Source: Haladaptatus pallidirubidus (GTDB lineage: Archaea; Halobacteriota; Halobacteria; Halobacteriales; Haladaptataceae). From it: a stretch of DNA of 64,000 nucleotides. The translations under genes were made by a program, and so were the position numbers. Within the stretch, counting starts at the first letter, position 1. Every line of letters begins with the position of its first letter. The notes beneath the pieces are model-generated. The model did no database searches and had not been told where the DNA came from. It worked only from the letters and a program-made list of their open reading frames with translations. Shown piece by piece: positions 54,193-60,790 of the stretch. The stretch is from assembly GCF_020700235.1 (NCBI RefSeq), contig NZ_CP085301.1:1364001-1428000 (forward strand), in the 5' to 3' direction.

Positions 54193-55536
54193 ATGACGAC
54201 GACAGCAGAAATAGCGGCGTTTGTCGCTGAAATGGAGTTCGACGACCTCTCGGGGGAGTCCGTCGATGAACTGAAAAAGCGCGTTCTCGATTCGATTGGC
54301 ATCGCGGTGGGCGCGATGGGAGAAGAACCGGTTGAAGCAGTTCGGGCGACGGTCGAGGAGATGAACGGCGAGGGGTGTACGCTCTGGGGCGGTGGAACGG
54401 CGTCGCCACCGGATGCGGCCATGCTGAACGCCGCGTACGTACGGTATCTCGATTACATGGATTCGTTTCTCGCGCCGGGGGAAACGCCGCATCCGAGCGA
54501 CAACATCGCGGGGATAATCGCCGCCGGAGAGTACGAAGGACGTTCGGGGAAAGACCTGCTCACCGCGGTTGGAATCGCCTACGAAGTACAGGCCGAACTC
54601 GCGTGGAACGCGCCGGTTCGTGACCGAGGGTGGGACCACGTCACCCACACCGTCATTTCGGCGACCGCGGGGGCGGCGAAACTGCTGGGACTCACCCACG
54701 ACGAAATCCAGTCCGCAATCGGTATCGCGGGAACCGCACACAACGCCCTTCGGGTGACGCGAACTGAGGGAATTTCGGAGTGGAAAGGGCTCGCTTCCGC
54801 GAACGCCGCCAGAAACGGCGTCTACTCGGCCATGTTGGCGAAAAACGGCGTCGAAGGACCGACGAACCTGTTTGAAGGCCGGAAAGGGTGGAAACAAATC
54901 GTCTCCGGCGATTTCGAGGTTGATTTTTCGCCGGGGGAGCACGTCCACGACGTGATGACGAAACAGTACGTTGCCGAGACATACGCTCAATCCGCCGTCG
55001 AGGGAATCATCGAGTTGGCTGAAGCTGAGGAGATCGACCCCGAGGACGTAGATTCGATTCACCTGGACACCTTCGCTGGCGCGAAACTCATCATCGGCGG
55101 GGGCGAGGGAAGTCGGTACGAAGTGGAGACGAAGGCGCAAGCCGACCACTCACTACCGTACATGCTGGCCGCGGCGCTCATCGACCGAGAGATGACGAAC
55201 GCGCAGTACGACCCCGAGCGAATCAAGCGAGACGACGTGCAAGAACTGCTTCGCACTGTAGGGGTGGCGGAGGACGACGAGCTGACCGACCGGTTCGAGG
55301 CGGGCGAGATGCCTGCAGTCATCGAGATAACGATGGCGGATGGGACGACGCACCGCGTCGAAAAGGATGATTTCGAGGGCCATCCGAACAACTCGATGTC
55401 GTGGGAGCAGGTAGAAGCGAAGTTCGGACGGATGGCCGAGGGGAGATACGACCACTCTCGACGGGAGCGAATCGTGGAAACCGTGCTCCAACTTGAACAT
55501 AACGATATTGCTGACCTCGTGGCGCTACTCGACTGA
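54193..55536 (+). CDS. MmgE/PrpD family protein
   Basis: This 447-residue protein belongs to the MmgE/PrpD family, which includes 2-methylcitrate dehydratase, cis-aconitate decarboxylase and iminodisuccinate epimerase. Landmarks are RVLDSIGIAVGAMGEEP, NAAYVRYLDYMDSFL, HPSDNIAGIIAAGEY, RGWDHVTHTVISATAGAAKL and the C-terminal MADGTTHRVEKDDFEGHPNN. The position of the active-site His/Asp is typical. No methylcitrate synthase or lyase is adjacent, so the substrate is open. Propionyl-CoA is produced by the methylaspartate cycle elsewhere in the window, and PrpD could handle its methylcitrate product, but this is speculative. The ATG at 54193 is preferred to an upstream start that adds 34 unconserved residues. 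Confidence 0.88.
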   Translation: MTTTAEIAAFVAEMEFDDLSGESVDELKKRVLDSIGIAVGAMGEEPVEAVRATVEEMNGEGCTLWGGGTASPPDAAMLNAAYVRYLDYMDSFLAPGETPHPSDNIAGIIAAGEYEGRSGKDLLTAVGIAYEVQAELAWNAPVRDRGWDHVTHTVISATAGAAKLLGLTHDEIQSAIGIAGTAHNALRVTRTEGISEWKGLASANAARNGVYSAMLAKNGVEGPTNLFEGRKGWKQIVSGDFEVDFSPGEHVHDVMTKQYVAETYAQSAVEGIIELAEAEEIDPEDVDSIHLDTFAGAKLIIGGGEGSRYEVETKAQADHSLPYMLAAALIDREMTNAQYDPERIKRDDVQELLRTVGVAEDDELTDRFEAGEMPAVIEITMADGTTHRVEKDDFEGHPNNSMSWEQVEAKFGRMAEGRYDHSRRERIVETVLQLEHNDIADLVALLD

Positions 55537-55598: not shown

Positions 55599-55865
55599 CG
55601 GATGGGTTGACAATGCTGACATCTGAGTGTCATTACATCGGATAGTAGAACGACCATATTCGGTAAGCGTTTCCAAATCCTCCCCGTTTTATTCTCCGAA
55701 ATTGGTCGCTTTGAGCGTTTTGGTTGCTTATACGTGGTTAGCCCCACCCGTCACCGCTGACGGCTGAATTGAACGGTATTGTGGGTTGAAATACAGTCGC
55801 GGCAACACGAGTAATTGGCTGACGCAGGGCGCGAAGATGTCCCGGTGTCGGCCGAGGTTAGAACT

Positions 55866-56201
55866 ATGAAGAAAGCACTCAGGCTACTCATCGCACTGTC
55901 TATCGTCGGCGCGCTGTTCACCGCAGGATTCGCCGGCTCGGCCGCAGCAAACGACTACCACAAGGACAAACACGATAAGAAAGTTACTTATCAAAAAGCC
56001 GACGCTACGGTTTATCAGGGTCAGGACGTCGAACAGGCGAACGTGAACTATCAGGAGGACAACTACGCGATCTCGGCGGCCGTAGGATGGAATGATGGCG
56101 AAGCTGAATCCGGAGACGCCATCGCCGTCCAGTACAACGACCAGAACAACGACAACGTGCAGTACGGTGAAGCGGAAGCAGAAAACGAACACGAGCACTA
56201 A
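55866..56201 (+). CDS. Small secreted N/Q/E-rich protein
   Basis: This 111-residue protein has a Sec-type signal (MKKALRLLIALSIVGALFTA and GFAGSAAAND). After cleavage the mature chain is hydrophilic, about 83 residues, rich in Asn, Gln, Asp, Glu and Tyr, with short alternating strands such as QANVNYQEDNYAISAAVGW and GDAIAVQYNDQNNDNVQYG. The alternating hydrophobic/polar pattern with Gln and Asn suggests a beta-stacking surface protein, but I cannot assign it to a family. It ends in a His/Glu tail (ENEHEH). A hairpin terminator follows 36 bases after the stop. Confidence 0.7.
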   Translation: MKKALRLLIALSIVGALFTAGFAGSAAANDYHKDKHDKKVTYQKADATVYQGQDVEQANVNYQEDNYAISAAVGWNDGEAESGDAIAVQYNDQNNDNVQYGEAEAENEHEH

Positions 56202-56998: not shown

Positions 56999-57826
56999 AT
57001 GACCGACAGAGCATTCGACTTTCTGCACGTAAACGAGCGCGAATCGAAACCACGCGAAAAGGGAATCACGGAGATGCGCGGACCGTACTACGACCCGATG
57101 GGACCGCGAGAGTTGCAGGATATCCTCGACACGATGGGCGAGTACGTGGACATCTACAAGTTTTCGGGTGGGTCGTTCGCCTTGATGCCCGAAGACGTGG
57201 TAGAAGAACTCATCTCAGTGTGTCACGACTACGATGTCCAAGTCTCCACGGGCGGGTTCATCGAAAACGTCCTCGTGCGCGACAACGACAAAGTTGAACA
57301 GTACGTAGAGGAGGCCGGAAACCTCGGCTTCGACATTGTCGAAATCTCCTCGGGATTCATTGCCATCAACACCGACGACCTCGTGGCGCTGACTGAACTG
57401 GTGCAAGATCACGGCCTGAAGGCGAAACCCGAAATCAACGTCCAGTTCGGCGCTGGCGGAGCTTCGGCGGTGGAGGAGTTGGAAAGCGAGGAGGCGATCG
57501 ACCCGGCGAGCGCGATTCGGGAAGCCAATCGGCACCTCGACGCAGGGGCGTACAAAATCATGGTCGAATCGGAGGGCATCACTGAACAGGTGCGCGAGTG
57601 GCGCACCGACGTGGCCTTCGCAATCGCCAACGAGGTCGGCATCGAAAACTGCGTGTTCGAGGCCGCAGACCCCGAGGTGTTCGAGTGGTACATCAAGAAC
57701 TTCGGGCCGGATGTGAACCTGTTCGTGGATAATTCCCAAATCGTGGAGTTGGAGTGCATGCGCTCCGGTCTGTGGGGGAAGAAGAGTTCGTGGGGCCGAG
57801 TGGTGTCCTACGAGGACGGCGAGTAA
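56999..57826 (+). CDS. ComA-superfamily protein, HSA32-like
   Basis: This 275-residue TIM-barrel protein belongs to the phosphosulfolactate synthase (ComA) superfamily. The stretches REKGITEMRGPYYDPMG, DIYKFSGGSFALMP, VQVSTGGFIENVL, LGFDIVEISSGFIAI and DVNLFVDNSQIVELECMRSG follow that family. The detailed wording (TEMRxPxY, KFSGGSxxL, STGxxxE, GPxVNLFVDxSQ) is closest, from memory, to plant heat-stress-associated HSA32. In archaeal ComA the same positions read KGLTVVLDKG and KFGWGT. Key ComA catalytic residues may therefore be lost, and coenzyme M synthesis is not expected: no ComB or ComC gene is adjacent. Function unknown. The gene is monocistronic with its own ATG at 56999. Confidence 0.8.
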   Translation: MTDRAFDFLHVNERESKPREKGITEMRGPYYDPMGPRELQDILDTMGEYVDIYKFSGGSFALMPEDVVEELISVCHDYDVQVSTGGFIENVLVRDNDKVEQYVEEAGNLGFDIVEISSGFIAINTDDLVALTELVQDHGLKAKPEINVQFGAGGASAVEELESEEAIDPASAIREANRHLDAGAYKIMVESEGITEQVREWRTDVAFAIANEVGIENCVFEAADPEVFEWYIKNFGPDVNLFVDNSQIVELECMRSGLWGKKSSWGRVVSYEDGE

Positions 57827-59215: not shown

Positions 59216-60790
59216 CTACATCGGGATTTCGACCAGCGTCATCTCGTCGCTTTCGACCGCTGAATTCAGGGTGTCGCCAATTTCGTCCCACGATTCCGCG
59301 CGAACCGCGTCGATACCGAAGCTTTCGGCGAATGCCACGAAATCCGGATTCGTCAGTTCAGTGCCGTAGTGTTCCTTGCGGTCTTCTTCCTGCTCTTCGG
59401 TGATGAGTCGGTATTCGGAGTCGTTGAACACGACTATCGTGTACCCACAGCCGAGTCGCGTCGCCGTCTCGATTTCCGCTGCGTTCATCAGAAATCCGCC
59501 GTCTCCAGTCGCGACCACGACGTTCGAATCGACCGCGAGGTCCGCCGAAATCCCGCCCGGAACCGCGATTCCCATACTGGCGAGTCCGTTCGAGATGATG
59601 ACCGAATTCGGCTCGTAGGTCGGGAACGCCTGTGCGATGGCCATCTTGTGACTTCCGACGTCGGAGATGAGCACGTCCTCGTCGGCCATCGCTTCACGGA
59701 GGACAGGCATGATGTTCCGAACCGTCACTGGGTCAGATTCGTCCGGCGTGCTCGTCGTCTGTTCGACCAATGCCTCGCGCTGGTCGCGGTACCACGCATC
59801 GGGACAGGAAAATTCGACTTCGCCGAGCAGTGCGTCGAGTCCAGCGGAAACGTCGCAGACAATTTCCACGTCCGGATTGTAATGCTCGTACACTTCGGCC
59901 GGTTCGTGGTCGAGGTGGATGATTTTCTTATCGAGGTTCGGATTCCATTTTTCCGGGTCGTGTTCCGCGATGTCGTAGCCGACGGCGAGGACGCAGTCTG
60001 CCCGCGAGAGTGCGTCCGCCGATTCGCCGTTTTCGCCCGAATCGAGCGTAAACAACGAGTGGTCGTTCTCGTCCGAGAGTGCCCCTTTCCCCATGTAGGT
60101 TCCCGCGACCGGAACCGCGGTTTCGGACACGAACTCGCGGAGGCTGTTCGCGGAGCGCGTTCGAACCGCGCCGTTGCCCGCGATGACGAGCGGATGCTCT
60201 GCGTTTTCCAACAGTTCAGTCGCGCGCTCGACGGATTTTTGGTCGGGAGCGGGACGCCGAACTTGCTCCCGCGGTTCGAGCGGTTGGGAGTCCGTTTCCT
60301 CGCCCGCCACGTTTTCCGGAAATTCGAGGTGGGTCGCCCCGGGTTTCTCGTATTCTGCGAGCTTGAAGGCTTTGCGAACCGATTCGTTGATGATTTCCGG
60401 GTCACTCAACTGCGCGTTCCACTTCGTCACCGACCGGTAGGTGTGGACGATGTCGAGCGTCTGATGACTCTCCTTGTGGAGCCGTTCGAGACCGGCCTGT
60501 CCCGTGATTGCGACGAGTGGGCTTTTATCGAGATGGGCGTCGGCAACCCCGGTGAGGAGGTTCGTCGCGCCCGGCCCGAGCGTCGAGAGACAGACCCCCG
60601 CACGACCGGTCACGCGCCCATGAACGTCGGCCATAAACGCCGCGCCCTGTTCGTGGCGCACGGGAATGAACTCGATGTCGGAGTCGCGAATCGAAAACAG
60701 CACGTCTTCGAGTTCCTCGCCGGGGATGCCGAACACGTACTCGACTCCCTCGTTTTCGAGACACTCGACGAGTAAATCGGATGCTTTCAT
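59216..60790 (-). CDS. Acetolactate synthase, AlsS-like (ThDP enzyme)
   Basis: This 524-residue thiamine-diphosphate enzyme has the catalytic Glu in PVRHEQGAAFMADVHGR, STLGPGATNLLTGVADAHLD, and the ThDP/Mg motif GDGGFLMNAAEIETATRLG followed by FNDSEY. The middle domain has CVLAVGYDIAEHDPEKWNP, a form close to catabolic AlsS proteins (GYDPIEYDPxxWN), which do not use FAD. The likely reaction is two pyruvate to 2-acetolactate and CO2. No acetolactate decarboxylase or ilvN is adjacent. Other ThDP-dependent decarboxylases are possible. The pseudogene lies downstream and sdhB is divergent. Confidence 0.85.
   Translation of the reverse strand: MKASDLLVECLENEGVEYVFGIPGEELEDVLFSIRDSDIEFIPVRHEQGAAFMADVHGRVTGRAGVCLSTLGPGATNLLTGVADAHLDKSPLVAITGQAGLERLHKESHQTLDIVHTYRSVTKWNAQLSDPEIINESVRKAFKLAEYEKPGATHLEFPENVAGEETDSQPLEPREQVRRPAPDQKSVERATELLENAEHPLVIAGNGAVRTRSANSLREFVSETAVPVAGTYMGKGALSDENDHSLFTLDSGENGESADALSRADCVLAVGYDIAEHDPEKWNPNLDKKIIHLDHEPAEVYEHYNPDVEIVCDVSAGLDALLGEVEFSCPDAWYRDQREALVEQTTSTPDESDPVTVRNIMPVLREAMADEDVLISDVGSHKMAIAQAFPTYEPNSVIISNGLASMGIAVPGGISADLAVDSNVVVATGDGGFLMNAAEIETATRLGCGYTIVVFNDSEYRLITEEQEEDRKEHYGTELTNPDFVAFAESFGIDAVRAESWDEIGDTLNSAVESDEMTLVEIPM

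Follow-up and report, generated by a model that had tools for sequence, protein, structure and literature searches.

A microbial protein resembling plant HSA32, labelled as a coenzyme M-making enzyme, is steadily paired with a PrpD-like gene in bacteria and haloarchaea

Two described proteins are the closest points of reference for the gene analysed here. One is ComA, the (2R)-phospho-3-sulfolactate synthase (phosphosulfolactate synthase) of coenzyme M synthesis, with solved structures from Methanocaldococcus jannaschii (1qwg) and Bacillus subtilis (1u83). The other is plant HSA32, which is described as heat-induced and as having chaperone-like activity without homology to known chaperones (PMC5040591), and as stabilising HSP101 (PMC11840417). 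In the window, meaning the whole stretch of 64,000 bases of Haladaptatus pallidirubidus that was analysed, an ORF at 56999-57826 (+) starts with ATG and encodes a 275-aa product with a predicted TIM barrel, matching the Pfam family of ComA (PF02679) over its full length (267 bits, E 1.6e-79). HSA32-like proteins of this kind are publicly annotated as phosphosulfolactate synthase, as seen among the matches in plasmid records. The ORF, its Pfam and NCBIfam scores, a tree, residue comparisons and an AlphaFold2 model place the window product in a subfamily of PF02679 that is distinct from ComA, and this gene with a coenzyme M-making label is a microbial form of a protein resembling the plant heat-memory factor HSA32.

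Grouping of the window protein with true ComA was looked for in a tree of 61 rows taken from 132 sequences, with 45 HSA32-like rows (36 bacterial, 8 haloarchaeal and 1 provisional plant sequence) and 16 ComA-type rows (11, plus 5 that are plasmid-borne). The window protein stood apart from ComA, as the initial annotation had led us to expect, with HSA32-like and ComA-type rows split by a branch with 100/100 support and the haloarchaeal HSA32-like rows forming a single group (100/100). PF02679 was present in 33 of 242 haloarchaeal genomes, host included; one of these carries a ComA-type gene (G226, locus L003 / L039) and 32 carry HSA32-like genes, those of G073 and G172 being fragments by match length. 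In one scan of the genome collection 481 loci matched, and the best 80 of these were used for the bacterial neighbourhood work. These best 80 come from Chloroflexota, Acidobacteriota, Balneolota, Rhodothermota, Verrucomicrobiota, Planctomycetota, Chlamydiota and others, and the HSA32-like family is therefore mainly bacterial and widespread, with haloarchaea as one of its branches. Matches were also present in 34 plasmid records, where identity was 53-97% for haloarchaea, 58% for Salinibacter ruber, 55% for Methylosinus and for Methylocystis sp. MJC1, and 24-27% for a distant group. Viral contigs, when scanned, produced 38 pattern matches, none of them a relative. The window protein is an ordinary member of a large prokaryotic subfamily that is probably misnamed.

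The gene most steadily found beside HSA32-like genes encodes an MmgE/PrpD family protein, located in the window at 54193-55536 (+). Its start is probably Met35 of the ORF listed from 54091, since alignments with most homologues set in at that residue. Across whole haloarchaeal genomes other than that of the host, searched by tblastn, this partner lay upstream on the same strand at 28 of 29 full-length loci (L040-L068, the exception being L061), at distances of 58 to 3,820 bases, and it was also upstream at both loci with a shortened HSA32-like gene (L069 and L070). Similarly, it was upstream on the same strand, 1-702 bases away, at 65 of the best 80 bacterial loci, a set in which the pair spans at least 14 named phyla; because these loci are the best of 481, this adjacency rate is perhaps above that of the whole family. 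Among the 15 bacterial loci without an adjacent partner, four belong to genomes with a 58-68% identical copy elsewhere, and several others lie on short contigs. An adjacent partner was missing from six of seven Verrucomicrobia loci. The partner was also upstream on the same strand at all seven HSA32-like plasmid loci that were opened, from Salinibacter, Methylosinus, Methylocystis and four haloarchaea (four out of 17 haloarchaeal plasmid matches). It is immediately upstream in records of Salinibacter, Methylosinus, Methylocystis, Halopiger and Halomicrobium, and upstream with small genes in between in those of Haladaptatus and Halorussus. Within the window, about 1.46 kb and two small ORFs separate the pair, which speaks against taking co-transcription for granted there.

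Co-presence in whole genomes agrees with this adjacency. With the window MmgE/PrpD protein as query and a threshold of at least 50% identity, matches were detected in 36 of 242 haloarchaeal genomes; of the 32 genomes that carry an HSA32-like gene, 31 had a match, as against 5 of the remaining 210 (Fisher test 9e-33, a statistic that ignores kinship). The partner occurs without an HSA32-like gene in G230, G137, G216, G047 and G104, where we saw by eye no replacement gene beside MmgE/PrpD, and the HSA32-like gene occurs without the partner in G118. As a control, the partner type adjoined none of 17 ComA-type loci, with a distant MmgE/PrpD in Bradyrhizobium alone, although this control is imperfect because several of the ComA-type contigs or stretches are short. 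The haloarchaeal ComA-type locus L039 likewise had no such partner. No third gene was common to all bacterial loci beyond MmgE/PrpD (62 of 83 loci), the next neighbour clusters comprising 14, 11 and 10 loci; members of the cluster of 14 all lie on the minus strand and were taken as an antisense ORF. We found no earlier report of an HSA32-like/PrpD-like pairing in the open-licence literature, to which the search was confined, and as far as that literature reaches, the steady pairing across bacteria and haloarchaea is new.

The partner is identified as a PrpD-like dehydratase by its domains, its synteny and its clade. It has both the N- and C-terminal MmgE/PrpD domains (PF03972, 254 bits; PF19305, 150 bits; both over the cut-off of 32.1), and it resembles PrpD / MmgE proteins in its HPSDN motif and in the PrpD-type layout of its alignment. 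Among named families, the 2-methylcitrate dehydratases come closest to it, and the nearest solved structures are a 2-methylcitrate dehydratase and a cis-aconitate decarboxylase. However, it belongs to the same superfamily without being PrpD proper: its scores against PrpD equivalogs (176.8, 143.7 and 113.6 bits) reach none of their cut-offs (950, 575 and 458), and the scores obtained for the partner gene range over 92-177 bits in all, against cut-offs of 458-950. A quick tree placed the partners together with the unlinked copies and the five haloarchaeal singletons in a single clade (44 rows, SH-aLRT 99), separate from other MmgE/PrpD proteins.

Since the HSA32-like gene is near-constantly adjacent to a PrpD-like dehydratase gene, a metabolic enzyme acting on a putative substrate is suggested, and the gene context points to such an enzyme and not to a heat-shock role. 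The reading we favour, and consider fairly probable, is that the product of the window gene is not a phosphosulfolactate synthase but a TIM-barrel enzyme from a separate, HSA32-like subfamily of PF02679, which shares a short pathway with the upstream PrpD-like dehydratase as a two-gene cassette across bacteria and haloarchaea. Mechanistically, the HSA32-like enzyme would still form an enolate-type intermediate on a metal-bound carboxylate. Neither the phosphate nor the sulfonate group of phosphosulfolactate would be present on its putative substrate, which would probably be a di- or tricarboxylate that the PrpD-like dehydratase acts on in the following or the preceding step.

Other neighbours of the cassette, together with a plasmid operon of Bradyrhizobium, hint at di- or tricarboxylate chemistry on a putative substrate. 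Once haloarchaeal neighbour clusters read as frame-shifted or antisense ORFs of the cassette genes had been set aside, only an acetolactate-synthase-like (ALS-like) ThDP enzyme of the PRK08322 type stood out as an occasional third gene in haloarchaea (9 of 33 loci). It lies in the window at 59216-60790 (-) and scores 607 bits against NF006187 (cut-off 509); in a wider count, it is near the cassette at 11 haloarchaeal loci, the window's own among them, and at one of the 11 MmgE/PrpD is the sole cassette gene. A succinate-semialdehyde-dehydrogenase-like gene was found near the cassette at six loci, including that of the alphaproteobacterium Methylocystis, while a seventh match (L099) was only 35% identical. 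These genes could be combined into a larger 2-oxoacid route, in which PrpD-like dehydratase, HSA32-like lyase, ThDP decarboxylase and succinate-semialdehyde dehydrogenase would make up an iron-sulphur-free bypass of aconitase and 2-oxoglutarate dehydrogenase. ALS-like enzymes of cyanobacteria can be 2-oxoglutarate decarboxylases (KGD). Cyanobacterial KGD has the residues His385-Lys386 and Lys471 (PMC10418658), and the window ThDP enzyme, its motifs read by eye, has H-K at the place of His385-Lys386 but Glu at that of Lys471. Considering also that the ALS-like and dehydrogenase neighbours are missing from most loci, and that the NCBIfam name of the ThDP enzyme is acetolactate synthase, we regard this larger route as unlikely.

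The Bradyrhizobium plasmid operon (L184 3322-6750) has the gene order MmgE/PrpD, PrpF/oxalomesaconate tautomerase-like, ComA-like, and is near a gene for a tricarboxylate transporter protein. Its ComA-like gene is a diverged one, and seven Bradyrhizobium plasmid records carry a similar gene. It resembles the cassette in that a PF02679 protein shares an operon with an MmgE/PrpD protein, but it differs in that its PF02679 protein falls among ComA types in the tree, its MmgE/PrpD lies outside the partner clade, and PrpF stands in between. By analogy, its arrangement near the transporter may be taken as an independent hint of tricarboxylates.

The likeness of the window protein to ComA extends to the fold and to presumed active-site residues. 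The AlphaFold2 model, built with 30 sequences (mean pLDDT 85.4, pTM 0.86), had 1qwg as its best solved match (Z 28.8, rmsd 2.0 over 242 residues), followed by 1u83 (Z 26.7), with the next barrels, e.g., pyruvate carboxylase and PEP mutase, at Z near 15; the closest solved relative by sequence was likewise M. jannaschii ComA (E 3.9e-17). A fold search of viral predictions gave general barrel matches only. TIM-barrel active sites are located at the C-terminal ends of the strands, and the invariant polar residues of the window protein (R27, K54, E115, E145, E190, E221 and D244) stand at or just past the C-terminal ends of model strands 24-27, 52-54, 113-116, 141-146, 187-189, 218-221 and 240-243. 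Residues common to ComA and HSA32-like proteins, in M. jannaschii numbering, are D40, K43, G47, G74, G75, E79, E103, S105, G107, E133, E168, E205 and R240, and the acidic barrel residues of ComA are retained by all 112 prokaryotic HSA32-like sequences compared. Shared fold, nearest structure, acidic residues and public name would all suit a diverged but genuine phosphosulfolactate synthase that makes sulfolactate, for use as an osmolyte or as a precursor of sulfonates, in cells lacking the remaining steps of coenzyme M synthesis.

We nevertheless consider a phosphosulfolactate synthase quite improbable, on the basis of the residues that separate the two groups and of the genes that accompany them. 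Between 16 ComA-type sequences (L163, L184 and L186 being excluded from the ComA set) and the 112 prokaryotic HSA32-like sequences, four positions were replaced in 112/112 of the latter, namely K137 by Q, R170 by E, R244 by W and Q212 by F, so that the K137, R170 and R244 marking the ComA type are missing, and the ComA-invariant N227 falls in a gap of the HSA32-like alignment. Where ComA has DKG and K-x-GWGT, the window protein has T24-E-M-R-G-P-Y-Y31 and K54-F-S-G-G-S59. The D and G of the DKG motif (each 15/15 in ComA) became G and Y, respectively, in 112/112 HSA32-like sequences, and W/F46 became G in 110/112. The initial annotation had read TEMRGPYY and KFSGGS as standing in for the DKG and KFGWGT of ComA; this was borne out, and since the motif recurs across phyla, the change in the window protein is not due to chance. 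On TIGR03849, the equivalog model for archaeal ComA, the product reaches 103.1 bits, below the cut-off of 280, although this cut-off alone is not decisive because the ComA-type protein of L039 also falls under it (230 bits).

Regarding the rest of the coenzyme M pathway, ComB (PF04029) was absent from the host genome, in which sulfopyruvate decarboxylase also had no match over cut-off, and this supports the view in the initial annotation of a host lineage without coenzyme M synthesis. Among the 30 HSA32-like haloarchaea searched, ComB was absent from 26 and found in 4, whereas it was present in 4/4 methanogen-like genomes and in G226; of 35 genomes, only 3 methanogen-like ones scored over cut-off with the sulfopyruvate decarboxylase beta model (TIGR03846). 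ComA types are often beside ComB, while the HSA32-like gene has a PrpD-like neighbour instead. If the HSA32-like reading is true, many phosphosulfolactate synthase database entries would be corrected, as this label carries the mistaken implication that haloarchaea, and many microbes besides, make sulfolactate or coenzyme M.

Two loci illustrate the ComA-type arrangement. The haloarchaeal ComA-type gene of L039 (G226:C2 about 227646-229487) encodes KLGWGT and has ComB about 0.5 kb downstream, which suggests sulfolactate synthesis in a haloarchaeon. On a Legionella lytica plasmid (L185 3856-7484), a long ComA-type ORF is followed by ComB, next to an aminotransferase gene.

The plant sequence in our comparisons is a provisional one taken to be Arabidopsis HSA32 (At4g21320); it has the motif forms TEMRGP and KFSGGS, which plant HSA32 is presumed to carry. 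The initial annotation had proposed that the window protein resembles HSA32 and that it links the plant protein to a haloarchaeal clade. The likeness found tentative support, as the provisional plant sequence fell in the HSA32-like clade that excludes ComA and was 38.6% identical to the window protein, against about 22-26% to ComA types. The specifically haloarchaeal link was not supported in that form, given a mainly bacterial family and a provisional plant sequence closer to bacterial members (up to about 44-46% identity; 241 bits, versus 197 for the window protein). This row is a single sequence on a long branch (3.39) covered by the long-branch warning for the tree, and its placement next to Methylosinus (89/93) is not to be trusted. 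A prokaryotic stress or chaperone-like protein, with the PrpD-like neighbour incidental or itself a stress protein, would fit the chaperone-like activity and HSP101 stabilisation described for HSA32 and the position of the provisional plant sequence, but appears very doubtful in view of polar barrel residues invariant over many phyla, as expected of an enzyme, the tight pairing with one dehydratase clade, and the bacterial and haloarchaeal loci, at which no recurrent chaperone neighbour was recognised.

Under the favoured reading of a metabolic enzyme, plant HSA32 may descend from the prokaryotic HSA32-like family. The provisional plant sequence retains E79, E103 and E205, as in ComA and prokaryotic HSA32-like proteins, but has changes at E133 (to M), E168 (to D), S105 and G107 (both to N), G177 (to D) and G242 (to R); if this unverified sequence is right, the active site of a bacterial enzyme family would have been partly lost in plants. 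Tentatively, and with somewhat more doubt than confidence, we propose that HSA32 is an exapted metabolic enzyme, that the prokaryotic family acts in an undescribed carboxylate pathway, widespread and mobile, whose two genes encode a PrpD-like dehydratase and an HSA32-like lyase, and that plants preserved the barrel but not the whole active site. If the prokaryotic relatives are enzymes working with a PrpD-like dehydratase, the molecular role of HSA32 would become testable with two small proteins and metabolomics.

Several further observations concern the cassette region. Between the cassette genes, window positions 55815-56201 encode a small protein that is predicted to be secreted and has a high content of N, Q and Y; a hypothetical protein is annotated at a like position in Haladaptatus caseinilyticus (L032). 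In Halorussus caseinilyticus, a gene for a CGCGG family rSAM-modified RiPP protein (L038 11049-11393) is located between the MmgE/PrpD and HSA32-like genes. A second match in the host genome (G000), 551,849 bases downstream, was rejected as a true second gene copy. It is read as an assembly duplication because all three sampled stretches (20,000, 17,849 and 20,000 bases) were 100% identical, those of the copy region (G000:C1 about 1915850-1999849) matching window positions 1-64000 plus the right flank, and this probable duplication matches the 15% contamination value. Decaying copies of the cassette were also seen, with MmgE/PrpD in two frames at L044, an in-frame stop reported at L052 (G149), and the shortened HSA32-like genes adjoining MmgE/PrpD at L069 and L070.
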